Assembly: GCA_964017235.1 (NCBI GenBank)
Contig: OZ024928.1
Location: 3,968,001 to 4,032,000 of the forward strand
From: Sabellastarte sp. h YS-2021
Lineage: Eukaryota; Annelida; Polychaeta; Sabellida; Sabellidae
Length of the DNA stretch: 64,000 bases
Direction of reading: 5' to 3'
The notes beneath the pieces are model-generated. The model was not told the DNA's origin and did not search any database. It worked only from the letters and a program-made list of their open reading frames with translations. A program made the position numbers and the translations under genes. Shown here in pieces: positions 15,101 through 58,700 of the stretch; the first letter of the stretch is position 1; every line of letters begins with the position of its first letter.

Positions 15101-18100
15101 TTAATAATGCCATTGTGTTAATTTGAAGTACCAAATAGCAGACTATGTTAAACATGTGAGCCAAAGAAAGGGATTTTCATATTTTATTGGATCCTATTAG
15201 TAGTTTTAGAAGTGTGGTACGTGTACCTGATGAATCATATCTTACCAGTATCGTGGGTTCAAATCCAGTCTGTGACAAGATCTGGAATGCACTGAAGGTG
15301 TGTCCCTACATGACTTAAGCTGTTGGAAGAGAACATTAAAATTCATCTTGAATCTCATATTTTGAAGGAAATACCATCGTAGCTCATGACCTCCACCATG
15401 AAGGTATTATTTTCATGACCATTCGTTTGTCTGTTTGTTTGGTTGTTAGTAGGATTATGCAAATACTACTGGTTGGATCATCCTCCAAGAAATCAGAAGA
15501 TAGGTCTTGGTGCATCCTAGATCCCATTAAATTTTCAGATTGATCTGGATCACCATCTGTATACAAAAAAACGGATTTTCCCATTTACTTATTATCACAT
15601 GCCTTGGCAGAGGTACTTGCCCTGTGAGTGCTCTTTTTTGATGATGTTTCTGTGGTGTACAGAGTTCAGTAATGACATGGTATCAGACTCACCTTCTAGC
15701 TCAGTGCTGTTGGGTTCAGGTCATGGATCTGAGCTTAAGTGGGAAAGTTTTTTTGTTTTTTTTTTGTAAATATCCAGTGATTCACAGTATAGAGTCTGCT
15801 TTTTTACTCTTACAGTCATCTGTTTTGATACGACCTATACATTGTGGTGAAAGGACATTTAAACCAAATTTATCAAATCAGTGATGTATCTTCTTGTTTT
15901 TACAGAAATGTAATCTCGACTCAGAATTTGGGGAGGATTATGAAGAATTCAGAGACTTTGTCATGCAGCTGGATAAAGACCAAAGCTTTGGAGAATTAGC
16001 CAGGTAGGTTAACTGGTTGGTGACCATTTATTGAGAAACAACAAAGCTTAGGAGGATTAGTCAGGCAGGTTAACTTGAGTGATGATCATAAATCTCGAGA
16101 AAGACCAATGCTTAATGATTGCGAAGGTAGGATTTCAGAAAATTAACAACTTTTGAAAGTAGAATATCTGAGTTGTTGCGATATATCTGGAGACAAAATC
16201 TTTAGTGACCTATTTATATAGTTCTGCTGCAAAATGATCATACAAATGGATAAAGACCACAGCTTTTGGAATGAATGACATTGTAAGTTAGAATAGTACC
16301 AAACAGCTGGAGCAAGACCAAGGTTTATAGACTTAGCCAGGTAGATAATAGACTGAGTTATTAGCACAGTACATATAGATATGTTGCAAACCTTCACATG
16401 ACCAAACTTTATCCTTGTATAATAACTGTGCCTCTGTGCCTATCTACCTTGGAGTTCCAGATTCCAGTGTTTCCCTTTAGCTATATGCTATGCGTGTCTG
16501 TTTAGTGTTTAGTTTCTATGTGTGCATGCAGTAATGAGAAGGCAGTGAGATTCAGTATTAACAGAGGCTGAGCAGTTTGTTTTTATACGTATACAGCTAA
16601 GCAATGGCCAAATGTTTTAAAGATATCGGATAACTCAAGCGTTGCTACCATCACAGTATCTTATGCGAGTAAATCTCTACCTGGAATTTGCTTTTATACA
16701 TGCATTTTCTAAATAATATTGAGTATAGTAATACAGATGCAACCCTTGGATTTTGTTTAACAGACTTACCTTATCCTTCACATAGGTACTTGTGTCTGAA
16801 TGAGTTTGTACCAGTACCTTTTCAAAATTGTTCTTTTTGAGAGGTCACCCTGTTACGCCATAGACAGTGACCTGTTTATGCACGTATATTGCATGACTTC
16901 ACAATAGTTTTGGTGATAAAATTAAGAAGCACTATCAGGGACAACGAAAGTATTTTATTTATGAAGAATTATTTTCACATTTGATTGGCATGTACTTTGT
17001 CTAGATGCCATCTACCAAGTGGGAAAATTGTGTGGTTGTGTCCCACACATAGAGGACAAGACGATCGGATCACTGTGCTCAGTAAAGATGACAATGAAGA
17101 CATCATACAGAGTACAGATGATGATACAGTGACCGCCAGCATGCTAGACCATCTGAAGGAGCAAAACGTGGCATCTCCACCACAGGCAGCAAAACCACAA
17201 CCAGCAAATATACCAGCAGGTGTCAGTACACAGGGACAAGCAGTACCAAAAAGCCCATCCCAGAGTACTGCATCTAGCACATGTAAGTAAGAGGTTTTAT
17301 CCTGTATGTTTACATCTGCCATTCTGGCCTAATAGGTAACACACTGGCCTAGGAATTTAGGGAATCTGGGTTCAATCCCAGGTACAAGCAGATGCATAGT
17401 AGCACGGATGACAGTACTTGGTTATTGAGTCCTATCCACGGTGGCAGGCTAAAGAAACCTCCGGGTTGTTAATAAATGGCCATCCCTTAGTCTCAGTCTT
17501 TCAGTTATGTAAATGTCAGTCACTAGAGCTTGGACTGTACTAGTGCAGTCAGAATGGGTCATATGGCATTTGGAGTCCTGAAATAAAGGAAACCTTGCAC
17601 AAAACACGAACACAATAATTAAAAAAAGACAATGTAACACACTTTTTATCTCCCGCCGGACTTTGGCCCAGGAGGGAGATTATGAAATGCATCCTGTGTG
17701 TGCGCGCATGCATGTCGGGGGATTTGTCTGTTAGTGTGTCAAAAAACTACTGCATTTACACATTTTTGGTACATTACTTGTCGTAATGGATTTTTTGCCC
17801 TTTCCAAATGGTTTATGTTTTTTTGGACTTTGGCCTGAAGCTAAGTGAGTAAAGGCACTCTTAGCTAATTTGTGTAAATGGCTTCAAACTCAAAAACTAT
17901 TGCATTTAGAGTATTTTGGTAAAATATGTTGTTTAGCTGCTTTCTCCTTACCTACAAAATTGTATGTACTTTGGAACTCTATTGTACTATATAAGTTAGC
18001 AAAAGCTATTTCCTTAATTTTAGCTAAATTATTGAAAAAGTAAATATCTAATATCTCAAAAAGTACTGCACTCGGCCTATTCCTTTCCCATATGTTGTTT

Positions 18101-19350
18101 ATCTACTTTTGGGTCAGCCATAACATAGTAAAATTGCAGAGCTGTAGCTCATTGCACAGCTGAGCAATAGCTACTTTTATGTTCTCACCATTGATTAAAT
18201 CACTTCTAACTTTCCAATTTTTACTCTCTGACTTTTCATTACCTTCCATAATGAGTAACATCACTGGTAACTTGGAAACTATTGGATATAGAGAATTTTG
18301 TATATGTTATTCAGCTACTTTTTGGTCAGCTATAACATAGTAATATTGCAGACCTGTAGCCAATACCATAGCTGAGTAATAGCTACTTTGAGGCTCTTAC
18401 TGTTGAGTAAATCAATTGTAACTTGAAAACTATTGCATTAAGAGTATTTTGTTTAAATATGGTATTTACCTACTTTTGGGTCAGCTATAACATAGTAACA
18501 TTGCAGACCTGTAGCTCATGGCATAACTGAGCAATACCTATTTTGAGATTCTCACTGTTGAGTAACTCAGCTGTAACTAGAAAACTATTGCATTTAGAGT
18601 ATTTTGTTGCAATATGTTATTCACCTGTTTTGGTGTCAGCTTTAACAGTAACAGTGCAGACCTGTAGGTGATTCAATAGCTGAGCAATAGCTATAGCAGC
18701 CTTCTAAAGGTCAAATTTGAGGCATTACTTCTAGCACAAATTACAATTGTCAATTATGTTGAAAACCGTTAGATATAGAGTGACTTTAAGCTAATTTTGG
18801 GTCTTTTGGGTACTATAGACCCTGGATATAATGCCTCAAAAAAATTTTAATTTTCCAAATTTTGGCCGCCATCTTGAATTTTGGTAGAGAACATCACACC
18901 ATGTCCCATCTGGGGATGTACTGCCGCAAATTGATGGAATTCTAGTTGCTTCTAGAACTTCAAATGTGAAAACAACCTGTAGGAAATCTTGTCCTGCGAA
19001 TCTTTTGCAAGTGTCAGTTTGATCTTTGACCCCTGCTGCAAGGTTCAGTTGAGCCATTTTACTCCCTTATTGTTGCTCCTTGGGCTTTGAACCCTTCTTG
19101 TGGTCAGACTACCTGCATTTCTTCTTAATACCTGGTGGGAGATAAATACCACGGCAGTGGTCTTGTTGCTTTTAAAGCTGTACGTCTACCTGATCAAATC
19201 TCTCTGTATGTTTTAGCCTCAGTCTCAAGCAAGGTGAAGGCCTTATCTGCAGAACTCCAGTCTCAGGGAAAAGCCTCGAATGCCAAGGCAGCAGCTCAAG
19301 TCGCCGGGGGACTCGACAAAAACAAGAGCAAAGCCTGTACAGTCATGTGA
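22..19350 (+). CDS. Multi-exon gene, C-terminal half, ROCO-like C-terminal domain with CAAX end
   Basis: Eight exons can be joined: 22-150, 1507-1559, 3664-3739, 4806-4949, 14853-15029, 15906-16003, 17005-17282 and 19217-19350. Every junction has AG/GT borders and the phases match, giving 362 codons and a TGA stop. The upstream part lies outside the window. The visible protein has a basic start with an IYPRLYVLDF stretch, an acidic Glu/Asp-rich linker, then a folded segment with a Cys-His pair (LCEHEEGWH), a helical stretch (APYMARLFAILKHTG) and a second Cys-His motif (WLCPTH). It ends in a low-complexity Ser/Pro/Ala tail and the tetrapeptide CTVM. The LCE..H, APY and WLCP.H spacing resembles the C-terminal region I recall for invertebrate and fungal ROCO (ROC-COR GTPase) proteins; this is inference from pattern only. 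CTVM fits a farnesylation CAAX box and would suggest membrane attachment. The exon structure is well supported; the family name is not. Confidence 0.75.
1142..1344. mobile_element. Short inverted-repeat element (MITE) with TA target site
   Basis: About 40 bp at the left edge (starting CACCCCTGTCACTAATG) is the imperfect inverse of the right edge (ending CATTAGTGACACGAGTG). TA flanks both sides (1140-1141 and 1345-1346). A TA target duplication fits Tc1/mariner-type MITEs. It lies in the first visible intron of the left gene and has no coding capacity. Confidence 0.55.
1507..1559 (+). CDS. Left gene, short exon encoding acidic linker
   Basis: The acceptor is CAACAG ending at 1506 and the donor is GTGAGT from 1560. 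It encodes KPPTDLQEGIPEEDEKE plus two bases of the next codon. Those two bases are completed exactly by the first base of the exon at 3664, which supports the assignment despite the small size. Confidence 0.7.
1830..2505. repeat. Region bounded by GCGGCGATAGCGGCGAT and its inverse, with a G run
   Basis: GCGGCGATAGCGGCGAT near 1831 and again GTCCAAGG...TAGCGATGGCCA near 1900 are mirrored by ATCGCCGCTATCGCCGC near 2480-2497, next to TTACTTGGAC. A run of G interrupted once occupies about 1855-1878. The inverted layout suggests a degraded inverted-repeat element, but I found no clean target duplication. Confidence 0.35.
3664..3739 (+). CDS. Left gene, exon encoding acidic linker
   Basis: The acceptor is TCTGTCAG ending at 3663 and the donor is GTAAGA from 3740. 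It encodes a very acidic stretch (SYPLDEEENEEDGDNQTD and on to ATQ). The first base completes a Thr codon begun in the previous exon. Confidence 0.75.
4358..4736 (-). mobile_element. hAT-like MITE, TSD ATAGGAAT
   Basis: A perfect 8-bp duplication ATAGGAAT flanks the element (4350-4357 and 4737-4744). The termini TCGGGCTGCGA and TCCCAGCCCTT are imperfect inverted repeats. It is homologous, in opposite orientation, to the element at 38145-38531; the shared interior includes ACTCGAG and TTTACTCC(A/G)TATTCTATAAT-like stretches. An 8-bp TSD is the hAT hallmark. No ORF. Confidence 0.75.
4806..4949 (+). CDS. Left gene, exon (48 codons)
   Basis: The acceptor is TTTTACAG ending at 4805 and the donor is GTATTA from 4950. 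It encodes a basic patch (ARRPKSALRKRGSG) followed by DMTYCLRFLCEHEE, the start of the conserved Cys-His segment. A hAT-like element ends only 69 bp upstream of the exon. Confidence 0.75.
5030..7435 (-). mobile_element. LINE retrotransposon (L2/CR1 type), 5'-truncated and mutated
   Basis: On the minus strand the order is an endonuclease fragment (about 7430-7230, with GDLNLHLD and HTLD), a linker (7032-6688), reverse transcriptase (6691-5780) and a C-terminal region (about 5620-5239, with LDYCNSLL, IQNALCRIVF and HWLPI). A 3' UTR ends at about 5030 in an AGCGC(T)ATTTC-type tail. Frameshifts and stops separate these blocks. Order and motifs match L2/CR1-clade ORF2. It is 5'-truncated inside the endonuclease, as is usual for LINE copies. 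A second copy of the same family lies at 35070-35589. It sits in the large intron of the left gene, antisense to it. Confidence 0.85.
5780..6691 (-). pseudogene. LINE ORF2 reverse transcriptase fragment
   Basis: The 303-residue open frame carries the RT blocks in order: LDSIPTSLVKE, NFRPVSNQSF, a damaged HSTET motif, AFDTINH, the block B' PYGMPQGSVLGPLLFTLY, and YVDDTQIYLAL, which holds the catalytic Asp pair (usually YADD, here YVDD). The N-terminal part continues in another frame upstream (6688-7032). The C-terminal frame breaks after LALDLETLD, where downstream sequence shifts. It is therefore a dead copy. Function would be target-primed reverse transcription. Confidence 0.85.
7513..7577. 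repeat. Left arm of an inverted repeat flanking DIRS element A
   Basis: This arm begins GGGCCGTTTC and ends GCGCCGTTTCAACACC. Its imperfect inverse is at 13540-13595 (GGTGTTGAAACGGCGC ... GGCCC). The DIRS element lies between them, so they look like the ends of an older inverted-repeat transposon into which the DIRS element inserted. No matching target duplication was found. Confidence 0.5.
7651..7814 (+). repeat. DIRS A left inverted terminal repeat
   Basis: From TAGCTTACCATGTGGGACTT through CACCGGATATACTGGTAG and ATCACGTGATAAC-like sequence to the TTTCTCGTT region, it is the near-perfect reverse complement of 13100-13250. The tip outside AAGCTTACC/TAGCTTACC differs between the two ends, as in DIRS-1. 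Confidence 0.85.
8044..11688 (+). CDS. DIRS A gag-like / reverse transcriptase / RNase H polyprotein
   Basis: One open frame of 1214 codons starts at the first ATG (8044). Residues 1-60 contain a Cys/His cluster (CRHFCFSF, YCPTCREAGKGDDPC, CQIC) like the zinc motif at the start of element B gag. Up to about residue 540 there is a Ser/Pro/charged gag-like region. RT spans roughly 615-800: RLFLVPKP, WRPVIDLSRLN, SSIDLSDAYLHIPI, LPFGLATAP and the catalytic YLDDWL near residue 738. RNase H spans about 900-1020, with LFTDASNEGWG, LELKAVSLAL, ATDNSTVVAYIN and ADLLSRS. A conserved post-RNase H block follows (VDLFATHLNHKLP, YAYPPTALL, IAPGWPGMPWF), sometimes called a methyltransferase-like region. 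The frame has no stops, so this part looks recently active. It overlaps the recombinase frame. Confidence 0.9.
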   Translation: MSIHQASKDKPRAQKCRHFCFSFDIHHYCPTCREAGKGDDPCVTFETPCQICTSFSDEQLQKIQNRKHYLKKQKAAPSSKDDELDLLGEGDGDSFTGSNADLECAADNLFASPPPPPLAFSSLSLKTPAKTVPPTPGTALQNKIQKNLEKSLGDSLNIHIQQQMGSFQASMLEAFQSLREELATQKKVEVESSLLASKPGSSSNNAAPLDLPPPRSGTNLPSEAMDVDYSPALPPRLVLTQDSSEQYVAPSEGHPEEVSYSHKKQSHRQPVDPSSASDQLNEDSDQPRIPSSRSKKHSDKSKHKSRSRYVSFSSEEDQSPVARHRSSKPSRAQPSGVASDQDLPQHDPDPPYYREVALSDMPSQYSEEVDTFRRILSLPDPRESMPRSSTSVLGLDDEKGRQELRPRGPSSILPLSSVIKDAFDKFQHDFKAANLSEGKYVQPPPSTSKWYKVGQPTFQDKIQELNTDFAKICITPRPSGAPVARVPLPVLKELELQARQNISTLNFTAAFAKTSSSCNVSLEKCQHSIKSTVKKIKSQIQKGANPEKAAKRGYEEVADYLDFWNKTVLVQHRALTCLSKSLAHILQRGLYSMANTGLLRREAEMTITSTIRRNETSRTQELSRLFLVPKPHQRWRPVIDLSRLNTFLHVEKFKMETPESIRTSLIPGEWVSSIDLSDAYLHIPIHPNSRKYLRFCYKAQVFQFTSLPFGLATAPQDFTMIVKEVKLMALSRGLRIHQYLDDWLIRSQSQEEAQVNTQAVVDLTQSLGWIINQEKSELKPTQVFSFVGYEYHLDSALVKPTQERWLKLQDLILRLKSKRVLTARCLMSLIGLLASTEKMVPEGRLHMRPFQFHLKEQWRYPQSLDNLLPWTEAIAAHLDWWQNPSNVMKGADLHPKDHSIQLFTDASNEGWGAHLDQNSTKGLWSDREKRLHINVLELKAVSLALRDFKDQCQNQTVLVATDNSTVVAYINKQGGTHSAEMCALLWKIMTWCHHYHITLKARHIPGCLNVMADLLSRSNQVQSTEWSLHPQVFKQICQKWFTPHVDLFATHLNHKLPLYVSPIPDPRAWDIDALNLNWTNLTAYAYPPTALLHKVIQKIRQCHCLIIVIAPGWPGMPWFWDLVQLSTEIPLQLPVSTTLLKQSHKFVFHNNPQHLNLHAWCLGADNFKNKASLWRWQRELLPLSGHQQGPSTSQSGPYLKNGAEKIRWISPLHL
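9945..12610 (+). pseudogene. DIRS A tyrosine recombinase, internally deleted
   Basis: The frame (-1 relative to RT) is open from 9945 but its recognisable recombinase starts near 11575 (APQRSSTRTIYKSKWALFEK). It continues through SIDGYR-like PSTIDGYRTAIVDTLG and WNLSVVLNELTKAPFEP, then stops at 11976-11978. Homology resumes in another frame at 11966 (VTIPAL) and includes the HxxR box AHDIRAFAASKAF and ACHWKAHNTFTNFYLKD, with the likely nucleophile Tyr. Compared with element B, about 58-60 residues are missing at the join near 11963, including the GSGKRRSEIHAW block with the first catalytic Arg. The deletion also shifts the frame. The enzyme would join the circular cDNA to target DNA; this copy cannot encode it. 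Confidence 0.85.
12940..13043 (+). repeat. DIRS A internal complementary region
   Basis: CATTAAGTCCCACATGGTAA at 12941 is the inverse of the left end, and it is followed by the inverse of the right tip (AATTTTAATTACTTAAATG ... AAGCTTACCATGTGGGACTT). It therefore joins both outer ends head to head. In DIRS elements this region templates completion of the circular DNA. Confidence 0.85.
13100..13296 (+). repeat. DIRS A right inverted terminal repeat
   Basis: It runs from AACGAGAAAATAGGGCGATT to CATTAAGTCCCACATGGTAA, then a 50-bp AT-rich tip (GCTTATAAAAGCTAC ... TTTTCAATTTTA) that is not shared with the left end but is found inverted in the internal region. Confidence 0.85.
13540..13595. repeat. 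Right arm of the inverted repeat flanking DIRS element A
   Basis: It starts GGTGTTGAAACGGCGC and contains GCCGTTTCGACCCGG. It is the imperfect reverse complement of 7513-7577. Confidence 0.5.
13610..14030. other. Intron DNA with nothing recognised
   Basis: AT-rich intron of the left gene between the DIRS flank and a LINE tail. No coding frame, inverted repeat or splice pair fitting the flanking phases was seen. Confidence 0.4.
14035..14138 (+). mobile_element. LINE 3' tail (solo)
   Basis: CACCTTAGAGTCTTCC and GAGATTAAGCGCTATAGAAG followed by short AGAATA repeats match the 3' end at 62810-62870 (CTTAGAGTCCTC, GAGATTAAGCGCTATAAAAG and an ATTAGA repeat). This looks like a heavily 5'-truncated LINE insertion in the intron. 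Confidence 0.55.
14853..15029 (+). CDS. Left gene, exon (59 codons)
   Basis: The acceptor is TTTCTAG ending at 14852 and the donor is GTACGC from 15030. It encodes GWHTHGPCLPLPLKPDRF, then the helical stretch APYMARLFAILKHTG and IRKLLEE. It continues the previous exon in phase 0 across a 9.9-kb intron that contains a complete DIRS retrotransposon. Confidence 0.8.
15665..15880 (+). mobile_element. Degenerate SINE-like sequence
   Basis: GGTATCAGACTCACCTTC and GTTGGGTTCAGGTCAT resemble the A- and B-box parts of the SINE at 25448-25675. TTTGATACGACCTATACA near 15829 resembles its 3' part (GATATGACCTGTACAGTG). A T-rich stretch interrupts it. Confidence 0.35.
15906..16003 (+). CDS. Left gene, exon
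   Basis: The acceptor is TTTTTACAG ending at 15905 and the donor is GTAGGT from 16004. It encodes KCNLDSEFGEDYEEFRDF and then VMQLDKDQSFGELA, an acidic helical segment. It ends with two bases (AG) of an Arg codon. Degenerate copies of its 3' end and donor recur in the following intron. Confidence 0.8.
16030..16350 (+). repeat. Decayed tandem copies of the preceding exon end and donor
   Basis: The exon end reads GGATAAAGACCAAAGCTTTG then GAATTAGCCAGGTAGG. The intron contains AAAGCTTAGGAGGATTAGTC with AGGCAGGTTAACTTG (16042-16077), ATGGATAAAGACCACAGCTT (about 16246) and GCAAGACCAAGGTTTATAGA with CTTAGCCAGGTAGATAAT (about 16313-16348). These look like old tandem duplications spanning the exon-intron border. 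Confidence 0.55.
17005..17282 (+). CDS. Left gene, exon with WLCPTH motif and Ser/Pro/Gln-rich linker
   Basis: The acceptor is TTTGTCTAG ending at 17004 and the donor is GTAAGT from 17283. It encodes RCHLPSGKIVWLCPTHRGQ, then an Asp-rich stretch and a Pro/Ala/Gln/Ser-rich linker that looks unstructured. It ends with one base of a Ser codon completed at 19217. Confidence 0.8.
17315..17440 (+). mobile_element. tRNA-related SINE fragment (candidate)
   Basis: TCTGGCCTAATAGGTAACAC resembles a degenerate A box and TGGGTTCAATCCCAGG is a good B box, about 40 bp apart. There is no tRNA cloverleaf or CCA context, so it is more likely a SINE remnant than a tRNA gene. Confidence 0.4.
17645..19167 (+). 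mobile_element. Helentron-like non-autonomous element, copy I
   Basis: The head is TTTATCTCCCGCC (17645), which folds back on GGAGGGAGAT 15 bp later and is followed by a TGTGTGTGCGCGC microsatellite. The interior has diverged tandem units around AGCTGAGTAATAGCTAC and GGTCAGCTATAACATAGTAA (about 120-bp spacing). The tail has GGTGGGAGATAAA (19134), the hairpin ACCACGGCAGTGGT (19148-19161) and the terminus CTTGTT. Subterminal inverted repeats, a tandem core and a 3' hairpin are the described features of Helentron-associated elements (DINE/INE-1, pearl-like). Copies II and III share all parts. It lies in the last intron of the left gene. Confidence 0.7.
19217..19350 (+). CDS. Left gene, terminal coding exon with CAAX box
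   Basis: The acceptor is ATGTTTTAG ending at 19216. The frame encodes a Ser/Lys/Ala-rich tail ending KNKSKACTVM, then TGA at 19348-19350. Cys-Thr-Val-Met fits the prenylation consensus; Met at the last position favours farnesyl transferase in known substrates. Confidence 0.75.
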
Positions 19351-21310: not shown

Positions 21311-21516
21311 CTTCTTTTGTGTACTAACTTCTTTTGTTTCCGGGTATTTTAAGGAAAAATATTTGACATATCTTTACCAAATATGGTATGAGCAATAGTT
21401 AGGTTCATAGCTTGCTTGGGAATGCTTACTGATAATAGCTATATAACTGACCGAGTAATAGATACTTAGCTACTTTGAGTAGCTTTTTTATTTTAAGCAC
21501 TTTAAAGAAAAAGTAT

Positions 21517-23321
21517 TATGTCCACCCCACTGGGGGGTGGACATATTATTTTTGCTTTTTCCGGCGTCCGGCGTCCCACTTGGTTTCCAGACATTTTAGG
21601 CAACAGTTCTTATCCTATCTTTACCAAATTTGGCATGCAGGTTTATTGGGTTAATAGCTTGTATGGGATTGCTTTTGGTGATGATAGCTCTATAGCTAAC
21701 TGAGTAATAGCTACTTTGCTACTTTTGAGTAGCTCTTTGGTTTCCAGACATTTTAAGGAATGCTATTAAGCCTAGCTTTCTGAAATTTGGTATGGAGGTT
21801 CATTGGGTTAATAGCTTGTATGGGATTGCTTTTGGGGGGAATTGCTTCATAGATGAGTGAGTAATTAATTAAATAAATGAGTAATTAGCTATTTTGAATA
21901 CTGAAAAAGGCAAATGTGCTCATATCTCCTAAACCGTGCGAGATAGAGCGATTTCGTCAAAATTTTCGACCCACATTGTATCTAAGGAATGTACTCTTTG
22001 CAATTTTCAAAAAATTTTCCCCTCCCCAAAAATGGCGGCCATTTTGAATTTTCGAATTTTTGCCAAAAATTGCAAAACACAAATTTGCTTCTATCTCCTT
22101 AACCGTGCGAGATAGAGCGATTTCGTCGAAATTTTCGACCCACAGGGTATCTAAGGAATGTATTCTTTGCAATTTTCAAAAAATTTTCCCCTCCCCAAAA
22201 ATGGCGGCCATTTTGAATTTTCGAATTTTTGCCAAAAATGGCAAAACACAAATTCGCTTCTATCTCCTTAACCGTGCGAGATAGAGCGATTTCGTCGAAA
22301 TTTTCGACCCACAGGGTATCTAAGGAATGTAATCTTTGCAATTTTCAAAAAATTTTCCCCTCCCCAAAAATGGCGGCCATTTTGAATTTTCGAATTTTTG
22401 TCAAAAATGGCAAAACACAAATTTGCTTCCATCTCCTAAACCGTGTGAGATAGAGCAATTTCATCGAAATTTTCGACCCACAGGGTCTCTAAGGAATGTA
22501 TTCTTTGCAATTTTCAAAAAATTTTCCCCTCCCCAAAAATGGCGGCCATTTTGAATTTTCGAATTTTTGTCAAAAATTGCAAAACACAAATTTGCTTCCA
22601 TCTCCTAAACCGTGCGAGATAGAGCGATTTCGTCGAAATTTTCGACCCACAGGGTATCTAAGGAATGTAATCTTTGCAATTTTCAAAAAAATTTCCCCTC
22701 CCCAAAATGGCGGCCATTTTGAATTTTCGAATTTTTGCCAAAAATGGCAAAACACAAATTTGCTTCTATCTCCTTAACTGTGCGAGATAGAGCGATTTTG
22801 TCGAAATTTTTGACCCACAGGGTATCTAAGGAATGTACTCTTTGCAATTTTCAAAAAATTTTCCCCTCCCCAAAAATGGCGGCCATTTTGAATTTTCGAA
22901 TTTTTGCCAAAAATGGCAAAACACAAAAAGTATGCTTCTATCTCCTTAACCGTGCGAGATAGAGCGATTTTGTCGAAATTTTCGACCCACAGGGTATCTA
23001 AGGAAAGTACTCTTTGCAATTTTCAAAAAATTTTCCCCTCCCCAAAAATGGCGGCCATTTTGATTTTTCGAATTTTTGCCAAAAATAGAAAAACAGGAAT
23101 TTGCTTCTATCTTCTTAACCGTGCAAGATAGAGTGATTTCGTCAAAATTTTCGACCCAACCAATGCAAAAAGGCATGAAGCTGAAATAATTTACATCTAC
23201 ACTAATAAATATTTAAGCATCATTGATATATTTTACAAATGAAACAGGGTCTTGTAAGACTACTGTACAATTTTGGCAAAAGGTTCATGGGGTGGACATT
23301 ACACATGATAATGTGTGTTCT
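21517..23321 (+). mobile_element. Satellite-bearing repeat element, GTCCACCCC family, copy 1
   Basis: The head is a hairpin: TATGTCCACCCC, then GGGGGGTGGACATA (21517-21545). Next comes a module with CTATCTTTACCAAATTTGG and GAGTAATAGCTAC, a 169-bp satellite array, and a tail module. GGGGTGGACATTA (23289-23301) is the inverse of the head, followed by the hairpin ACACATGATAATGTGT. The plan matches the Helentron-like family (copies I-III) but the sequences differ. The exact 3' limit is uncertain because similarity to the copy at 29840-31830 continues about 60 bp past the hairpin. Confidence 0.5.
21905..23160 (+). repeat. 169-bp satellite array (about 7 copies)
   Basis: The marker AATGGCGGCCATTTTGA recurs at about 22031, 22200, 22369, 22539, 22707, 22877 and 23047, giving a 168-170 bp period. 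Each unit also has GCGAGATAGAGCGATTTCGT and TTTTCGACCCACAGGGTATC. Units differ by few bases, suggesting recent amplification. Open frames on both strands are by-products of the period and are not genes. Confidence 0.9.
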
Positions 23322-23379
23322 TCTATGCTATCCTGTTTCTATTCGCATCTACTATCAACAGTGCGTCCTATTTCTAGTT

Positions 23380-24240
23380 TCACCTATGTTCACAAAATTT
23401 GGGATGGAAGATTATTGGATCAGTAGTTTGCTTGGGATTGCTTCTGGTGATAATACCTTTATAGCTAACGGAGTAATAGCTACTGTGCTATATAGCTATT
23501 ATGCTATTTTGAGTTGACTTTTTTTCTAGACATTTTAATAAAACAATGTTTTCTATCTTCACAAAAATTTATATGAAGGATAATTGGGTCACTAGTTTGG
23601 CCAGGATAGCTTTTGGTCGAGGGCAGCTTTGTAGGTATCTGAGTAATAGCTGCTTTGCTACCAGTTCCCAGCAAGTTGAAAGAAAGAGGGACATGGGAAT
23701 TAAAATTTTATTCTTTAACTTTGTAAAAGTACTTGATCTTTTAGAGAAGCACATGACAAAATTTATTACAGTTTATATTACTATTCATGTGTGACCTAGG
23801 CTGGCCGAGCAACCTGCCAAACTGAGCTAAGGATAAGAGGTCAAATCAAGTGACAAATGACCTACAGGTCAAAGCAAGGTCAAGCCAAGCAAGACAATGC
23901 AAAGGAAAGGCAGACAGATTGGGCAGCAATATATAACTGATTTTAGAGTTCATTGCTTGGAATAATTTACTCTGTCCAATCTACCTGCCAACCCAATAAT
24001 AAGCCGTACCAGACCAGAAATGAAATTAACCCGAAAGGTCATAGGTGAACGACTTGCAAGGTCAAAGTCAGGTCAGAGCCAAATCCGACGACCCCGAAGT
24101 GAGGGAGGTAAGCTGGCCAGCAAATAGTGTATTCCAATAAACTGTTAACACACTGAGATAATGTATAAGATCTTTTTAAATTTTTGATATTAATATTTGT
24201 ATGACTATTCTTGAATTCAGTTTGTATACAAGATCTAGCA
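23380..24240. other. Further copy of the GTCCACCCC-family head module, then unassigned DNA
   Basis: Around 23385-23665, TTCACAAAATTTGGGATGGA and GGAGTAATAGCTACT repeat the head module of the element to the left, twice. From about 23790 to 24240 I see only purine-rich GGTCAAAGCAAGGTCAAG-type sequence with no gene. Confidence 0.4.
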
Positions 24241-24268
24241 ATAAAGAAGCACCCAAGCCCCAGTAGTA

Positions 24269-25133: not shown

Positions 25134-25178
25134 ATAGTTTTAAATGTCATGGTTCAGAAGAGTCAGGTCCAAATGGGT

Positions 25179-27209: not shown

Positions 27210-27460
27210 GTTAAATTCACTTGCAGGTGTGCCTGGCAGACATTTGTGCTCTTTGAGTGATTTCTAGAGTGACAGCCTTCAGATCTTCCCCTTACCAAAG
27301 ACCCAGTTTTGTTTTTTTCCCCACCAATAATATGTTTTCTTGAGAAGCCAACAAGGGCTTAATATTTGGCTGTACATTTTTAACATCAACAGCTCTTGTA
27401 AGGCTGTACCTATCACTCTTTTGACCTTGCAAAACTTATTCTGAACCATCATCAATATGG

Positions 27461-28108: not shown

Positions 28109-28159
28109 GTGAAAACCTTACTATTTTTTCAACTTTTTCTGAGAATTTTGAGCCTCACC

Positions 28160-31830: not shown

Positions 31831-31879
31831 TGTTTCTTTTCATATGTTTCAGCTACTTGTAACAGGGCATCCTATTTCT

Positions 31880-33840: not shown

Positions 33841-33841
33841 G

Positions 33842-35065: not shown

Positions 35066-35069
35066 TATG

Positions 35070-37085: not shown

Positions 37086-37093
37086 GTACCTAT

Positions 37094-37782: not shown

Positions 37783-40700
37783 CTGAAAACACAGACCAGA
37801 CATATTGCATAACAATAAGTTATACACCACCCTCCACAGGATGTCCAACAGAAAGCATGTGTCAAACACTGGAGAAACTATAGAGCCTACCTGACATAAA
37901 AGTATCATATTCCATACCATATTCAAGGTTCACAGACTGAAAAGATACTGGGGGCTTAGTTTGTAATCAAACACAAAACCTCAGGAATCCTGCAAATAGT
38001 TCCAAATCAAAACAGAAACAACTAAACAGGTACCTCAGTTGGGAAAATCTGTTACTTATAAAGGGCATCCAAATCTGTAACAAAGAATGATCACAATATT
38101 TGTCCTTTACTTTGCTTGCATAAGCATTTGATTTTGATTTTTACTAGGGCTGTGACGGGTGCTGAAAAACGGCACCGAGTACTCGCCCTCCGACAACCTG
38201 CCCGAATTCAAGTAACCGCGAGATTTAGTACCTACCATTAGAAGTCTTCTATAAACAAATAGTCGGTTCCGGAAACGAAACTTTTGAAGAAAAACGTCTT
38301 CTATTAGACCAGATATTATAGAATATGGAGTAAATTATACGTTTTCAAGCAAAAATAACAAGTTTAATTGATATTATGTGACTGTAATGCTGAAATGTAG
38401 CATATTTTACACAAGCATTTCATTACGTGGGCGATAAAACAATACATCCCTAACCGAGTACTCAAAATGGACTCGAGTACTAGCAAAGATTGTCTCGTCT
38501 ATCGAGGCTCGAGTACCCGTTCGCAGCCCTAATTTTTACCTGAGAGTCAAATGTAAGACCTTTGATTTGGCTAAGATTAGGGCTTAAGTGGATTTCAGAA
38601 AAGGGGCCTTAGCTAAGACCAAGAGAAGACTGGTAGATCAAATAGCCCCAGAGATTTTCTGTGTCATGTGATTCTTTATTTTCACCCGAAAGTACTGGTG
38701 ACATATATCTTTTGTTTGAAGCATTTAACCCACATAGTTTAATCAATGTTAAGACCAAGACTTAGCCAAAGACTTAGATGCCATGTGAAATCCAATAAGT
38801 ATAAGACCACAGATTTAGCCATAGTTTAATTAAATTAAAAGCTGCCTTAACTTTTAGTCAAAAGTTTGTGTTAAGTCCTTCTGTGAAATTGGCGTGGTAT
38901 CCAAAACAGGAAATATTTAACAACAAGTGCATAAAATAATGCAAATAATGCTAAATATTCTGTATTTTGGTTTTATCAGCATACCATGACTTAATATCCC
39001 AAACGTCTACTTTTACTCACAAACAAGACCACTGCCGTGGTATGATCTCCCGACGCACTACATCAAAAAGTAGGTGAACAACATATTTGACAAAACTCCT
39101 TTAAATTGAATAGTTTTCAAATGAAAGGACATAAGCAATAAAGTCATAAAAACATTGAAAAGGCCAAGGAGAAACAACCAGTGTGATGTACAGCCCTTTA
39201 TAAAAGCGTGACACACACTCAATAGCATTTACTCATTTTCAGTAGGTGAGTAATTAGCTACGAGTCTGAAACTTCACCATGTGAAAGCTCTCCTAAAAGT
39301 AGATGAATGACTTAAAAAGTAGATGAACAATTTATTTGAGAGAAATTGTGTAGCTGCAATACTTTTGAAGATATAAGGCATTTATTCATTATGGTTATCA
39401 TTAAAAATTGACAAAGTAGCTATTACGGTTTGCGAGATATTAGTCATTTTTCACATTTTCACCAAAAGTAGCAATAAAGTAGCCATTACTCACTTGTACA
39501 TTGAGCAACAGTTGTGAAACTTAAATATGTTACAGTTCACAAAAAAGTAGATGAACAACTTATTTGAGAGAAATTGTGTAGCCGCAATACTTTTGAAGAT
39601 ATAAGGCATTTACTCATTATGGTTATCATTAAAAATTGACAAAGTAGCTATTACTCACTTAGCTATGGAGATACACTTCCAAACTAGTGACCATGTTGTA
39701 GCTGTGGAGATAGTAGCTGAACAACATATTGGAACAAAATTGTGTAGCTGCAATACTTTTGAAGATATAACCCATTTACTCATTATGGTTATCATTAAAG
39801 TAGCTATTACTCAGTTAGCTATGGAGTTACAGCTGTGAAAATTCACAATACAGTATATCCAAAAGATAGGTGAACAACATATTCGACAAAAATCCTCTAT
39901 ATTCAATAGCTTTTGAGTTATAAGTGACTTGCTCAATGGTCAAATGTTAAACTTAGTATAGCTATTACTCCGTTAGCTATGGTGCTACACCTTGGACACC
40001 TCACCATGATATAGTACATGAAGGAGTTGTTGAACAACATATTTCAGGCCAATATTGTAAGTAACAGTTACAAAGACAAAATCAATTTACTCATTTTGCT
40101 CATTGTTAATAACAGAAAATAGCTATTACTCACTTAGCTATGAAGATAGAACCCTAAAAATGGTACCATCTTGTAGGCATGGAGAAAGTAGCTGAACAAT
40201 GTATTTTACAGAAACACTCTAAATGCAGTCGTTTTGGAGTTATGAGCACTTTACTCAAAGTAGCCACCATTGCTATTACTCACTTAGCTATGGTCCTAGG
40301 TGTGAAATAACAGCATCAAATGAAAGGACATAAGCAATAAGGTCATAAAAAACATTGAAAAGGCCAAGGAGAAACAACCAGTGTGATGTACAGCCCTTTA
40401 TAAAAGCGTGACACACACTCAATAACACACGAACACACGCACCCATGCACGGAATGCGTTTTATAATCTCCCGCCCGGCCGGCGGGAGATTATAAACCAC
40501 AATTTTGGTTGTAATTTACAGAGCTGAAACGATTATTCGTACTAATCGATTAGTAGGTTATCAAGGCACTAGTCGACGCCAATATTATGAAATCGGTTAA
40601 TTGTTTTCTTGTGTATATCAGCACATAACGATTATACGTGATCGTTGGAACTATGAGTATCTCAAGTTAAGACCTTAAAACGTATCAAATTAAAGTATTT

Positions 40701-49700: not shown

Positions 49701-52700
49701 CCCTTACAGGACGCCTGGGACTAAGCATATTTCTGAAACCGACCCTCAAAAACCCTTAATCGGGAGCCTTAGTCGTGTGGTGGAACACCCACAATAGACT
49801 GCGCTGAGTTTGTGTACAGGAACCGACTTGTATGACTGATCATTTGATCCATGAAGGTCAGGAACACACTCAAGGTTGAATAAATTTTTTTCAGTGAGCA
49901 CAAGTGTCCTGAGTAGCCAAGATCAATGATTTAAGTTGTAAGTTGCCTACCTTAGGGTGCTACGATTTAACCATATGGTGTAATGTCTAATCTTATCCGC
50001 TTTCCCATAAAAATCGATTGGCGTGCCAGGGTGGCGCAGTTGGTAACAGACATCTCTGAGGTTGGCGGTTCAAATCTTATGTGGGAGAACTGGTATTTGC
50101 TTACCAATGATCAGCAGTTTACAGTGCAGAACCTTGACCAAATGTATGTACTGGTGTTCTCAGCCCACAAAACTACCCGTCGTGATTTGACCTGTACAGT
50201 GTTGAAAGCGACGTAAAACCCAAAATAAAAAAATCCTGTCAAAAGAGATTATATAGCATATCACTGTCCCACATACTGTACAAGAGTCATCTGTAGTCAT
50301 TATTGCAAGTAATCTTTATGAGCTGTCACAATTAGGAACAGGTCTTAAAACTTGTGTTTCACTCTAGACAAATTATGTGTTTCAGCCATTTTTAGTCATT
50401 AGTTTCAGGCTATCCATACAGGTAATAAGTTACTGGGCAATTTTTTCTTTAATTACTCTAGTCATGAATAATAATCCTAAAGGTAAGTTTATTATTACTC
50501 AGCACATATTAATTTACATGTGTGGTTAATACTTATTTGTTTGCATTTGGATGTCTCAAGGACTGATGTGGGTGGGGGTGTGTGTGTGTGTTTGTTTTTG
50601 TTTTTTGTGGGGGGGGGTTCTTAAATATCCAGAAGATTATGTAAATCACTAGGCTGTAACAATTAACTATAGTAATCGAATACAAGGTTATCAAAGAACT
50701 AGCCGACCCAATATTGTTGGACCAGTTGATTGCTTTCTTATGTATAATCACCTCATGTGGGATTTCATTTGATTGCTTGAATTGTTAATATTTCAAACTG
50801 AGACTAAAGAGGTATCAAATTAAAGTATTTTGCCTGTATTTTATGTCAAAAATATAAAAGAGGACATTAGTTACCACTTACCCAACAATCTGGGTGAATG
50901 TTCTACTTTTCTAGCATCTCACAATCTAGTCATATTGCTTAGTTACATCTGGGACACATGCGACATCCTTTGTATTCCTCAAAAATGCGACACATCAGAA
51001 AAGGTTAGCCGGTTAATGGACACTTAATGAAAGCAGCTACTCCACTAGCAAATTCTACACATTCTTTCTGCCTTATAACTCACCTTACTCTCCCAGAGTC
51101 TCTCCAGATGGTCCACGATGGCCTCGTAATTCATAATTGCTTCCTGTAGTTCGTCGTGACATTCCTGGGTCAAGGCCACACTCTGTTGCATCACTTCCTG
51201 TGTGTTCAGCTTCACATCAGTTTCCATGGTTACAGAGTTTTCTTCATTCTGCTGTTCTGTGCGCTCCTTCAGTTTTTCATCCAGAACACTTTCCTATCAC
51301 ACACACACAAAAAAAAATTAAAGATTTCTTTTAAACATGGATTGGTTCAAGTTTAACACCAGGTTTACAGGACATAGTGGTAACACACTCACTTTCTAAC
51401 TCAGAAGTTTTGGGTTCGGATCTGTAGTGTAATCTTAAATTGGAAGCTTGGTAGTTGCTTGCTGATGCCAAGTACTTGTCAGTACAGCATTTTATCCAAC
51501 CAGTAGTGCTGGGACGATGTTTGCAAACTTTGGTATTATCGCTCGCTGGCTCATTGCCGATCAATGACCGGTAAACTTTAAGTACAACCGATATTTGCTA
51601 AATTCATTTCTTTGTAGCCTTTTGGTCACAATAAAACACTAACCGGAATAATATTTTGTAAAAATTTGATATATTTATCAGTTAAAATGTCAAAACTAGC
51701 TGTGAATGCAATAAAAATAACGTAAATAGAAACACTTTGGGGTTTTCCCACTGTTGTCAAGGTAATCATAAGATGAGCCAATCACAAGTGAAGATACATC
51801 CAGCATGGTCTGTTAGTGAGGGATACGTCTGTGAATGGCTTTTATGTTATATTTTTGTTATATTTGTGATAATTTGTGTGTATTTTACTTGTTATTTAAT
51901 ATTTGATTTTTCTTTCTGGTTCACACTTTTGACTCCATGATCGGAAATGTTCGAAGTTTGTTCACGAATTTCCGATACGAACATCGACACGTAATATCAT
52001 GGCGATCTCCCAGCACTACCAACCAGTATGCACTTCTATCCTCCACCCTTGAAGCTACCGGATAAGATATATCCTATTCAATGCATTAAAAGGACACTAA
52101 AAACACTTTTTTGATATTTGAATTGTACCTCGTCTACAAAAACTTCCACGTGAAGCAAAATGCATACATTTTAGCATTATTTGGCCTTTCCAGGTGAAGA
52201 CTGGTTAAAACTAACAAAGAGTCAACTGTTCTTTGAACATAAATGGGTCTGTTGATATGGGTCAAGTTATAATAGAGAAAATGGTACATGGTTTTAAATT
52301 CATTTGAAAGATTAAAGATGGAAGAATTCCTTTGGTCACAAGATGACCTCATCTCCTATACAAAACACTCAAAATACTTATATCTTAAACAGTGAAAAAC
52401 AAGCATTCTGACACATGCATTTATCTCCCGCCATATAAATTAGATGTACTAAAGATAACATATTTTAACAAGGTGCTGTAAATGTAATACTTTTCAAGTT
52501 ATAATCGATTTAGTGCATGATTTCATGAATTTTAATGCATTAAAAATTATTTAAAAAATTCATTAAAAAAATTTAGCATGTGAAAGCTCTCCAAAATGTA
52601 GGTGAATGAGTTATTTGAGAAATATTGGCTATCTGCAATACTTTTAGTGATAATAGGCAGTTATTCATTTTGAGTAGGTGAGTAATTAGCTACGGATCTG

Positions 52701-55700
52701 AAAATTCACTAATTGAAAGCTCTCCCAAAATGTATGTGAATGAGTTATTTCAGAAATACTGGCTATCTGCAATACTTGTAGAGATAATTCGCATTTACTC
52801 ATTTTCAGTAGGGGAATAATTAACTACGGGTGTGAAACTTCAAGTGAAAGCTCTCCCAAAAGTAGGTGAATGAGTTATTTGATAAAAATTGGCTATCTGC
52901 AATACTTTTACAGATAATTCACATTTACTCATTTTGATTAGGTGAGTAATTAGCTACGGGTCTGGAACTTCACCATGTGAAAGCTCTCCCAAAAGTAGAT
53001 GAACGAGTAATTTGATAAAAATTGGATACCCGCAATACTTTTAGAGATAATTAGCATTTACACATTTTGAGGAGGTGAATAATTAGCTACGGCTCTGAAA
53101 ATTCACCAAGTGAAAGCTCTCCCAAAAGTAGGTGAATGAGTTATTTGATAAAAATTGGCTATCTGCAATACTTTTAGAGATAATTCACATTTACTCATTT
53201 TGAGTAGGTGAGTAATTAGCTACGGGTCTGGAACGTCACCATGTGAAAGCCCTCCCAAAAGTAGATGAATGAGTTATTTGATAAAAATTGGATATCCGCA
53301 ATACTTTTAGTGATAATAGGCAGTTACTCATTTTGAGTAGGTGAGTAATTAGCTACGGATCTGAAAATTCACTAATTGAAAGCTCTCCCAAAAGTAGGTG
53401 AATGAGTTATTTGAGAAAAATTGGATATCTGCAATACATTTACAGATAATTCACATTTACTCATTTTGAGTAGGTGAGTAATTAGCTACGGGTCTGGAAC
53501 TTCACCATGTGAAAGCCCTCCCAAAAGTAGATGAATGAGTTATTTGATAAAAATTGGATATCCACAATACTTTTAGTGATAATAGGCAGTTACTCATTTT
53601 GAGTAGGTGAGTAATTAGCTACGGATCTGAAAATTCACTAATTGAAAGCTCTCCCAAAAGTAGGTGAATGAGTTATTTGAGAAAAATTGGATATCTGCAA
53701 TACTTTTACAGATAATTCACATTTACTCATTTTGAGTAGGTGAGTAATTAGCTACGGGTCTGGAACTTCACCATGTGAAAGCTCTCCCAAAAGTAGATGA
53801 ACAAGTAATTTGATAAAAATTGGATATCCACAATACTTTTAGAGATAATTAGCATTTACTCATTTTGAGTAAGTGAATAATTAGCTATGGGTCTGAAACT
53901 TCACCAAGTGAAAGCTCTTCCAAAAGTAGGTGAATGAGTTATTTAAGAAAAATTGGATATCCCAATACTTTTAGGGATAATTCACATTTACTCATTTTGA
54001 GTAGGTGAGTAATTAGCTACAGGTCTGGAACTTCACCATGTGAAAGCCCTCCCAAAAGTAGATGAATGAGTTATTTGATAAAAATTGGATATCCGCAATA
54101 CTTTTAGAGATAATTCACATTTACTCATTTTGAGTAGGTGAATAATTAGCTACGGGTCTGAAATCTCACCAAGTAAAAGCTCTCCCAAAAGTAGGTGAAT
54201 GAGTTATTTGAGAAAAATTGGATATCTGCAATACTTTTACAGATAATTCACATTTACTCATTTTGAGTAGGTGAGTAATTAGCTACGGGTCTGGAACTTC
54301 ACCATGTGAAAGCTCTCCCAAAAGTAGATGAACGAGTAATTTGATAAAAATTGGATATCCACTATACTTTTAGAGATAATTAGCATTTACTCATTTTGAG
54401 TAGGTGAATAATTAGCTACGGGTCTGAAACTTCACCAAGTGAAAGCTCTTCCAAAAGTAGGTGAATGAGTTATTTAAGAAAAATTGGATATCCCCAATAC
54501 TTTTAGGGATAATTCACATTTACTCATTTTGAGTAGGTGAGTAATTAGCTACGGGTCTGGAACTTCACCACGTGAAAGCTCTCCCAAAAGTAGATGAATG
54601 AGTTATTTGATAAAAATTGGATATCCGCAATACTTTTAGAGATAATTATCATTTACTCATTTTGAGTAGGTGAATAATTAGCTACGGGTCTGAAACTTCA
54701 CCATGTGAAAGCTCTCCCAAAAGTAGATGAAGCAGTTATTTGAGAAAAATTATGTCATTATTTTGCCACAAATAAGAAAATAGCTATTACTCACTTATGG
54801 CATGCAATAGAACCCCAAACTATATGCATTTACCCTACAGTCACAATTTCAAAGTAGGTATTACTCGGCTATCCAATGTGCAACAGGTCTGAAACTTTAC
54901 TATGTGATAGGTTATCAAAACTAGATGAATAACATATTTGAAAATATTTCCCTAACTTTAATACTTTTGAAGATATTTGACATTTACTTATGTCGTTATT
55001 TTGCTACAAATAAGAAAATAGCTATTACTCACTTATGGCATGCAATACAACCCCAAACTACATGCCAGCTTATAGCTAAGGACAAAGTAGCTGAACACCA
55101 TATTTGAAGAAAAAGCTGTAACTGCAATAGTTTTGGAGTTACAATGGATTTACTCAACAGTCACAATTTCAAAGTAGCTATTACTTAGCTGTGCAATGTG
55201 CAACAGGTCTGAAACTTTACTATGTGATAGCTTACAAAAAAGTAGATGAATGACATATTTGAAAAGAATTCCGTAACTTTAATACTTCTGAAGATATTTG
55301 ACATTTACTTATGTCATTATTTTGCTACTAATAAGAAAATAGCTATTACTCACTTATGGCATGCAATACAACCCCAAACTACATGCCAGCTTATAGCTAA
55401 GGACAAAGTAGGTGAACAACATATTTTACGAAAATATTGTAACTGCAATAGTTTTGGAGTTACAATGGATTTACTCAACTGTAGAATTTCAAAGTAGCTA
55501 TTACTCAGCTATCCAATGTGCAACAGATCTGAAACTTTACTATGTGATAGCTTATGAAAAAGTAGATGGATAACATATTTGAAAAGAATTCCCTAACTTT
55601 AATACTTTTGAAGATATTTGACATTTACTTATGTCATGATTTTGCTACAAATAACAAAATAGCTATTACTCACTTATGGCATGCAACAGAACCCCAAACT

Positions 55701-58700
55701 ATGTACCATCTTATAGCTAAGGACAAAGTAGCTGAACAACATATTTTAGGAAAATACTCTAACTGCAATAGTTTTGGAGTTACAATGGCTTTACTCAACA
55801 GTCAGAATTTCAAAGTAGCTATAACTCAGCTATCCAAGGTGCAACAGGTCTGAAACTTTACTATGTTATAGCTTACCAAAAAGTAGATGGACAACATATT
55901 TGAAAAGATTTCCCTACTTCAATACTTTTGAAGATATTTGACATTTACTTCTTCTGTTATTTAGCTACAAATGAGAAAATAGCTATTACTCGCTTATGGC
56001 AAGCAATAGAACCCCAAACTGTGTACCATCTTATAGCTAAGAACAAAATAGCTGAACAACATATTTTAGGAAAATACTCCAACTGCAATAGTTTTGGAGT
56101 TACAATGGCTTTACTCAACAGTCAGAATTTCAAAGTAGCTATTACTCAGCTATCCAAGGTGCAACAGGTCTGAAACTTTACTATGTCATAGCTTACCAAA
56201 AAGTAGATGGACAACATATTGGAAAAGATTTCCCTAACTTTAATACTTTTGAAGATATTTGACATTTACTTCTTCTGTTATTTAGCTACAAATGAGGAAA
56301 TAGCTATTACTCACTTATGGCAAGCAATAGAACCCCAAACTATGTACCATCTTATAGCTAAGAACAAAGTAGCTGAACAACATATTTTAGGAAAACACTC
56401 TAACTGCAATACTTTTTTAGTTACAATAGCTTTACTCAACAGTCAGAATTTCAAAGTAGCTATTACTCAGCTATCCAAGGTACAACAGGTCTGAAACTTT
56501 ACTATGTCATAGCTTACCAAAAAGTAGATGGACAACATATTTGAAAAGATTTCCCTAACTTTAATACTTTTGAAGATATTTGACATTTACTTCTTCTGTT
56601 ATTTAGCTACAAATGAGGAAATAGCTATTACTCACTTATGGCAAGCAATAGAACCCCAAACTATGTACCATCTTATAGCTAAGAACAAAGTAGCTGAACA
56701 ACATATTTTAGGAAAACACTCTAACTGCAATACTTTTTTAGTTACAATAGCTTTACTCAACAGTCAGAATTTCAAAGTAGCTATTACTCAGCTATCCAAG
56801 GTGCAACAGGTCTGAAACTTTACTATGTCATAGCTTACCAAAAAGTAGATGGACAACATATTGGAAAAGATTTCCCTAACTTTAATACTTTTGAAGATAT
56901 TTGACATTTACTTCTTCTGTTATTTAGCTACAAATGAGGAAATAGCTATTACTCACTTATGGCAAGCAATAGAACCCCAAACTATGTACCATCTTATAAC
57001 TAAGAACAAAGTAGCTGAACAACATATTTTAGGAAAACACTCTAACTGCAATACTTTTTTAGTTACAATAGCTTTACTCAACAGTCAGAATTTCAAAGTA
57101 GCTATTACTCAGCTATCCAAGGTGCAACAGGTCTGAAACTTTACTATGTCATAGCTTACCAAAAAGTAGATGGACAACATATTTGAAACGATTTCCCTAA
57201 CTTCAATACTTTTGAAGATATTTGACATTTACTTCTTCTGTTATTTAGCTACAAATGAGAAAATAGCTATTACTCACTTATGGCATGCAATGGGACCCCA
57301 AACTATGTACCATCTTATAGCTAAGGACAAAGTAGCTGAACAACATATTTGAAGAAAAAGTTGTTACTGCAATAGTTTTTGAGTTATGAGCCCTTTACTC
57401 AAAGTAGCTAAGATTGCTATTACTCACTTATCTTTAGGCCTAAGTCAATAAAACCAAAAATTTTTTCAAGGGCATGAAAATTCATTGGGACAATTAATTT
57501 ACAAAAAATCTGTAGCTGTAGTAGTTTTGGAGAAATCTGCGTGACTAACTAACGCACGCACACACGCACGCACGCACGTACGCACGCACGCACGCACGCA
57601 CGCACACACAGACATCATTTCATAATCTCCCTCCCGGGCTAAAGCCCGGCGGGAGATAATAACTTAGGTCTCATTAGGCTACCATCCAATTCCAAAATTT
57701 CTTTTTGCATGTACACAAATTAAATTCTATGAGGGTCTGATTAGATCAGATTACCATCCATTTCCAGAAGATGTCCTCATGCTCCCGCCACTTCAGCAGG
57801 TTTTGCAATCTCTCATTGTCTTGTTCAAGTAGCTGCATATTCTACAACAAACAAAAGCCCAGTTAGCTAATGAGACTAAAAATGTAGAGTAAAACCATAA
57901 TCCTGAACATCTGCCATATTCCTTGACCAAATATTAAAATATTTTGCGATAGGTTTTATTCTTTACGTAATTTGGTTGGTTTATTAGGCAAAATCAAACA
58001 TTGCCTTCTACTGCTACTGCACACAAAGCTTCAAATGTTACATACTTTTTAATCTCTACCCCAATGAGAGGTCACTACCTAGTACCTACCTAGATTTTAT
58101 ATTTTAATATGCAAAGTACAAGTACACAAAACTGGTACATAAAATTTTTAAAAGTTTGTGTTGTAATGTAAATGCTTAGAGAGAGGCTTGGCATCAACAA
58201 AGTAATACAGAAAAAGCATTTTAAACATGATACTTTCATGACAGTTTTGTGTACCTTACATATACAAATATTACAGACACATAAATTAAAACAACTATTT
58301 GTTGCACTCAAAAAATGTTCCACCAGTACTGCTGGTGACCAAATAGGAGATATCTAGGAGTGGGTGCATTGCTTGGCTGTGTTGATACTGAATGCAAAAA
58401 TATTTCAATATCATTTGATATCAAAGGATAATATTGTCTTCCAAGGAGTATGAATCCGGGATTCCAGAAAAGTTTTGTTCTTGTATCCCCAACCGCTAAC
58501 CAAAAGTGAAGTTTATCAAAATCAAAACACAGTAGTTCTGATCAAATTGCATTGAAAAACTACAAAATATGAGATAAAAGTGTACATTTTCTTCAGATTT
58601 AGGGTTTATTTCAAATATTTTCAGTGTAAGTTTATAGTTATACATAAAATAGTGATAGTGACACACATCTTTGTATACCAATATGAGCAACTGTGTCCAC

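Follow-up and report, generated by a model that had tools for sequence, protein, structure and literature searches.

Probable non-autonomous Helentrons in a Sabellastarte genome share a core unit with a large satellite

Three stretches of DNA in Sabellastarte sp. h YS-2021 are very probably non-autonomous Helentrons (Helentron-associated non-autonomous elements, HINEs). They lie in a window of 64 kb, the whole stretch of DNA that was analysed (C2:3968001-4032000, GC content 38.5%), and the genome searched for their relatives comprised 1.79 Gb in 647 contigs. The assignment is made because many copies share the same ends, the elements have no coding capacity, insertion at TT occurs without duplication, and the cores vary in length.

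The three copies (Table 1) were refound where an earlier note on this DNA had placed them, with limits shifted by only 1–4 bases, and all three show the order it described, in which a head that folds back is followed by a microsatellite, a core, the inverse subterminal repeat, a short hairpin and CTTGTT. The 5' end starts with TATCTCCCGCC in copies 1 and 3 and with TTTATAATCTCCCGCC in copy 2, where the 5' arm is longer and pairs with its fold-back without mismatch. Alignment of the copies revealed inverse subterminal repeats of 10–12 bp at both ends, and the 3' palindrome ACCAC-GGCA-GTGGT is present in copies 1 and 2; the stem in copy 3 is only 4 bp. When fold energies were computed as DNA and each compared with 200 shuffles, none of the 200 folded as well as the head of copy 2 or of copy 3, and four did as well as that of copy 1. 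The longest uninterrupted frame lying wholly inside copy 1 is 73 aa, and that of copy 3, which recurs with the array, is 95 aa. The cores had been described as differing in length and repeat content. The difference in length stands, but the cores are related, those of copies 1, 2 and 3 aligning at about 66–77% over hundreds of bases. Features of HINEs present here are subterminal inverted repeats (subTIRs) near both ends with a 5' fold-back, a 3' palindrome, and a microsatellite together with central tandem repeats. The 5' arm of copy 2 is extended so that it mirrors its fold-back partner over 16 bp without mismatch, as though hairpin copying had restored the end.

A blind structural scan, in which a subterminal 10-mer had to have a fold-back and an inverse copy no more than 60 bases from CTTGT, returned copies 1 and 3 at these positions plus one other match in the window. 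Copy 2 was missed because of one mismatch to ATCTCCCGCC in its 3' repeat. The same scan of five block-shuffled windows gave 1, 0, 1, 0 and 0 matches.

Searching the genome with the tail, as had been proposed, recovered many copies. The pattern GGGAGATN{1,5}ACCACGGCAGTGGTCTTGTT, which fixes the hairpin and requires CTTGTT, had 769 exact matches and none in the reversed form. With the terminus left free there were 566 matches, of which 100 were listed, 67 of them with letters; among these readable matches CTTGT continued in 67/67 and the following base was T in 59/67. The element is therefore taken to end at CTTGT and the next T is counted as target, so that the CTTGTT end first proposed is shortened by its variable last base. 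The flanks after CTTGTT were unrelated between the first 30 of the 769 tails, except for two pairs or groups within shared repeats. The sequence TTATCTCCCGCC, found at both ends in many copies, had 12,611 exact matches compared with 27 for its reversal. Among its first 100 places there were 34 neighbour pairs less than 12 kb apart, of which 17 were convergent, two divergent and 8 + 7 parallel; this excess of convergent pairs is as expected for the head and tail of one element.

Pairing of heads with tails was examined for 59 exact heads, those on C1 and those on C2 as far as 91.9 Mb (100 listed of 321), the tails used on C2 beyond 7.9 Mb being of the GATCAT type only. Among the tails listed, an exact one followed downstream, on the strand of the head and no more than 30 kb away, for 34 heads; a pair in the wrong order or strand occurred once. 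The distances ran from 261 bases to 29.9 kb with a median of 2.85 kb, though nesting or chance may explain the two longest spans, of 14.7 and 29.9 kb. The tail subfamily of copy 2 accounted for 20 of the 30 fetched tails. Its members were on average 1.3% off their consensus over 70 bases, a value truly nearer 2% as about 27 of those bases are fixed by the pattern, and this low divergence points to probable recent movement.

Empty sites, which the earlier note had named as support if they showed no or minimal duplication, were seen without duplication for one insertion outside the window (L053) but for none of the window copies. The joined flanks of L053 match the uninterrupted sequences L046, L025 and L071 at 78, 81 and 73%, respectively. 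With ^ marking the junctions, the insertion reads T^TATCTCC...CTTGT^T; the lengths agree with the empty sites and there is no target duplication, although substitutions remain next to the junction in the alignments. Joining the flanks after CTTGTT leaves one base missing relative to the empty sites, and joining at CTTGT removes the gap. Another tail (L039), read on the right side only, sits at CTTGTT^TCTAAA of an element like F1 (described below), which is uninterrupted in L056. The flanks of 14 heads picked by eye from 26 rows were mostly T-rich (TTATT, TTTTT, TTGTT). A more specific target, CTTGTT, is not claimed; it precedes the cut in L046, L071 and L056, but the left flank of L053 is TTTTATT.

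A profile search for Helitron_like_N located 24 places in the genome, and five of these Rep loci were read over 20 kb. Four of the 24 (L012, L014, L015 and L017), designated F1, are about 99% alike over 2–3.5 kb. The two F1 copies read over 20 kb each, A and B, are 12.3 and 12.5 kb long and 98.5–99.0% alike, and the likeness ceases at CTTGT (A 14659, B 14604), after which the flanks differ. Both have a fold-back head GGCGGGTTGCG...CAACCCGCC (with one mismatch in the outer head of A), a GTCY microsatellite, repeats, CGCAACCCGCC and CTTGT. The F1 frame includes DUF6570, Helitron_like_N, PIF1 and a C-terminal Exo_endo_phos, the last match falling just below the curated cut-off (22.6 vs 24.5 bits). 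At another locus, F4 (L009), Rep and PIF1 were accompanied by an endonuclease match that exceeded its threshold (29.3 vs 27.4). The F1 head had 1,387 exact matches in the genome, often as doublets 0.6–0.8 kb apart, as within A and B. The related autonomous Rep-helicase element sought by the earlier note was thus found in part. By its predicted products and its ends, F1 is the putative counterpart in machinery (Rep, helicase and endonuclease), layout and CTTGT terminus of the expected partner, but its subterminal repeat (GGCGGGTTGCG) is a different one. In the 20 kb read for each of F2 (L016), F3 (L021) and F4, no convincing TATCTCCCGCC-like ends or other subTIR pairs were found. A degenerate head like that of copy 1 lies 0.4 kb downstream of the last long frame of F4 and is not clearly the end of F4 itself.

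Copy 3 contains two tandem arrays, and the earlier note had suggested that one copy acted as a seed for two long satellite arrays. This held for one of the units, the 133-bp unit being a large satellite with at least one long array; the 321-bp unit was found in small clusters, 20 of the 22 examined lying beside element ends. A 27-mer from the 133-bp unit had 130,965 exact matches in the genome and none reversed, which at 133 bases each amounts to 17.4 Mb, about 1% of the genome or more, units inside elements included. This is a lower bound for all 133-bp units because only 84 of the 179 recognisable units in the sequences examined were exact. The 100 places listed all belong to the beginning of C1, and 96 of them fell in C1:739,522-761,468, an array of at least 21.9 kb in which every spacing is a multiple of 133 to within 1 base. 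The nearest exact TTATCTCCCGCC sequences are at 697,965 and 1,334,687 and the first listed C1 tail is at 3.18 Mb. No exact element ends of these types were therefore present within 41 kb to the left of the array or up to 1.33 Mb to its right, though mutated ends are possible. Growth of this long array by block duplication has partial support; its longest repeated gap word, 21, exceeded all 2000 shuffles (at most 14), but the autocorrelation (best 0.66, shuffles up to 0.70) and the commonest 9-gap word (5 times, shuffles up to 6) were within the range of the shuffles. A 29-mer from the 321-bp unit had 5,000 matches, none reversed. Half of the 100 places listed were in the first 17 Mb of C1, in 22 clusters of up to four, and 20 of these clusters were no more than 5 kb from an exact TTATCTCCCGCC, although only 6% of that stretch is so close; the other two were at 10 and 43 kb.

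The unit may have passed from element core to satellite or in the reverse order. An independent 133-bp satellite that was captured by the element is a distinct possibility, if the lesser one; it concerns the origin of the unit only and is compatible with the elements being HINEs. Exact matches to the 133-bp unit greatly outnumber exact tails (130,965 vs 769), a rough comparison since the two patterns are not alike and the unit occurs in other subfamilies too. The long array without exact ends nearby also fits a satellite that came first, and insertion of elements into the satellite would provide a route for capture. Parts of the copy 1 core, on the other hand, resemble the 133-bp array in copy 3 (about 67–77% over 55–136 bases), which suggests growth of the unit from the core.

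Insertions into the satellite were detected. The unit reads CCAATTTTT(A/C)TCAAATAAC and contains a run of five Ts which takes further insertions. The tail joined to (A/C)TCAAATAACTCATTCAC had 25 matches and CCAATTTT joined to the head had 243, with none for the reversed controls. In the complete lists for C1–C3, seven of the 11 right junctions had a left junction in the correct order on the same strand within 30 kb, none was in the wrong order, and three of the seven shared one left junction. Such matching left and right junctions bear out, for other copies, the ends and the T^T target seen in L053. In L058 the core consists of 133-bp units, a left junction is 2.1 kb upstream, and CTTGTT is followed by about two more units and then by another hairpin repeat. 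At L058:1809-1900 the hairpin AAGCGTCCC-GCAA-GGGACGCTT plus GTT interrupts the 133-bp array, and units of a 169-bp type come next. Junctions occur in clusters, e.g. at C1:123.48-123.49 Mb and C18:33.796-33.799 Mb, so the counts are not of independent insertions. This suggests that nested copies were duplicated along with the array. Three mini-elements, at C1:6011541, 10228633 and 10797921, have 230–247 bases between exact ends and a left flank of CCAATTTT satellite, suggesting one nested copy that multiplied together with its satellite surroundings. A preference of the element for its own 133-bp unit is not claimed. Four of the 67 right flanks start with the unit after its T run, and with at least 131,000 such sites in the genome chance may suffice.

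We consider it a speculative and rather doubtful proposal that these observations make up a feedback loop, in which the element carries the 133-bp unit, the five-T run serves as a landing place, nested elements are duplicated in blocks, and element and satellite amplify each other. No literature combining Helitron, satellite DNA and insertion into the satellite was found, which does not make nested insertion new.

As to the nature of the elements themselves, a foldback or miniature inverted-repeat transposable element (MITE)-like DNA element that carries subterminal inverted repeats and is mobilised through cut-and-paste by a DDE transposase is improbable. Such an element would account for the 10–12 bp inverse subterminal repeats at both ends, and pearl elements have been filed as MITEs according to the part of PMC5139131 available to us. 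It would not account for the lack of a target duplication in L053 against three empty sites (one insertion), for ends so asymmetric that the hairpin and CTTGT are on one side only, or for a Rep-helicase element that has the same layout. Between such ends no DDE gene was observed, although no genome-wide DDE search was made. A canonical Helitron (5' TC, 3' CTRR, A^T target) shares the 3' hairpin, the absence of duplication and the Rep-helicase relatives in the genome, but is barely tenable given a 5' end of TATCTCC, a 3' CTTGT in 67/67 and a T^T target.

Several results weigh against the elements being HINEs. No autonomous copy with their subterminal repeat was found among the five of 24 Rep loci read, and both ends were located in only two of the 24. 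An exact tail partner was lacking for 25 of the 59 heads, where mutated ends, unlisted tails and solo heads are not separable. No empty site of copies 1–3 was present among the 40 of 650 candidates scored with joined flanks. Six of these 40 were the window's own flanks and 34 were in the left flank of copy 2 (query 161–231), a high-copy repeat whose matches never reached the junction. The blind scan gave five matches in the reversed, uncomplemented window, which keeps the repeats, and copies 1–3 were all missed by a stricter scan that required eight exact fold-back bases and a 3' stem of 5 bp. The energies of the 3' hairpins were also not distinctive, being equalled by 38, 10 and 97 of 200 shuffles for copies 1, 2 and 3, respectively. 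The earlier assignment to Helentron-associated non-autonomous elements nevertheless retains the support of the ends, of the empty T^T site free of duplication and of an element that encodes Rep, helicase and endonuclease in the same layout; a partner with an identical subTIR was not found among the loci read.

If the elements are HINEs, a Helentron Rep-helicase-endonuclease would cut at the element ends, and the element would be copied by rolling circle and pasted at T-rich sites, with the fold-back head and the 3' hairpin probably acting as start and stop signals. The tandem array in the core could range from short to long while the element stays mobile, as paired exact ends are 0.26–9 kb apart, and less surely further. 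Cores may lengthen by unequal exchange or slippage. The element would then spread the 133-bp unit, and local block duplication could lengthen arrays that no longer need the ends.

Table 1. Positions of the three element copies and their parts in the window
Feature	Position	Strand	Basis
Copy 1, non-autonomous element, 1.52 kb	17647..19166	+	sequence and blind scan
Copy 1 head, TATCTCCCGCC folding back on GGGAGATTA	17647..17683	+	alignment, folding
Copy 1 TG/CG run, microsatellite-like	17695..17715	+	by eye
Copy 1 core array, 2.9 copies of 155-bp unit	18252..18694	+	tandem-repeat analysis
Copy 1 tail, inverse subterminal repeat, hairpin ACCAC-GGCA-GTGGT, CTTGT terminus	19134..19166	+	
Copy 2, element of 1.47 kb	39023..40496	-	
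Copy 2 tail, CTTGT, hairpin, 3' repeat with one mismatch	39023..39054	-	
Copy 2 head, 16-bp fold-back without mismatch	40460..40496	-	folding
Copy 3, element of 5.26 kb	52399..57658	-	sequence and blind scan
Copy 3 tail, CTTGT, weak hairpin, 3' subterminal repeat	52399..52432	-	
Copy 3 133-bp array, 16.4 copies, unit of the genome's large satellite	52577..54751	-	
Copy 3 321-bp array (about 2 x 160), 8.0 copies	54829..57386	-	
Copy 3 microsatellite, ACGC on + strand	57552..57609	-	
Copy 3 head, subterminal repeat folding back	57616..57658	-	folding

A fourth element, of another family with the same architecture, lies at 21518-23320 of the window (right limit approximate). Its head TGTCCACCCCA folds back on TGGGGGGTGGACA, its 3' end has TGGGGTGGACA and the hairpin ACACAT-GATA-ATGTGT, and it carries a 169-bp array (21911-23158). 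It was found by the stricter blind scan, for which ten shuffles gave 0 or 1 match (1 in two of the ten). A short element at 13031-13281, with the 18-bp inverted repeat CTTACCATGTGGGACTTA at its ends, is perhaps a MITE. No ends were found in the structural scan of the window for the arrays at 59702-60650 (147-bp unit) and 30268-30670 (152-bp unit).

Elements of this sort are known from oysters and flies, and here the satellite, the element ends and a look-alike encoding the machinery are seen together. Bivalve satellites are thought to be seeded by Helentron repeats, with long arrays poorly kept in many assemblies and partners missing. In this genome one element family has two core units with different fates as well as insertion back into the satellite, and the order of events becomes testable by dating units inside and outside the elements.

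The window elements are a further family of a known kind, that of HINE, Cg_HINE and pearl elements. With Cg_HINE of the Pacific oyster, as far as it is described in the accessible part of PMC7492417, they share a 5' subTIR with a fold-back inverted repeat, a microsatellite, a 3' subTIR and palindrome, a T-rich target and the absence of duplication. The central repeats of Cg_HINE are reported there to be mostly 140–180 bp in a fixed orientation, with up to 29 units and in some cases two successive arrays. The elements examined here differ in having 133-bp and 321-bp units in one element, the 133-bp unit forming a free array, too, at least 165 units long. The same source could not relate Cg_HINE to autonomous elements; here an element of the same layout with CTTGT was found, again with another subTIR. 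HINE and DINE-1 Helentrons, known from mites and flies, share palindromic subTIRs, a 3' palindrome, a TT target and variable end Ts, going by the portion of PMC4067079 available. That text describes a partner encoding Rep, helicase and endonuclease, an autonomous element counting as partner when at least 11 bp of subTIR are identical; here a partner of equal subTIR was not found among the loci read, and the sequences and host also differ. Pearl elements (CvA, CvE), DTC84, MgE and the satellites Cg170/BIV160 are likened to the window elements by description only, from the accessible parts of PMC5139131, PMC8268682, PMC11136912 and PMC12628747. Within that compass, bivalve pearl-type elements are modular, with core repeats shared with satellite DNA that occur in element-bound, one-sided and free arrays, and nested and shuffled Helitron-satellite loci are reported from oyster (PMC12628747).

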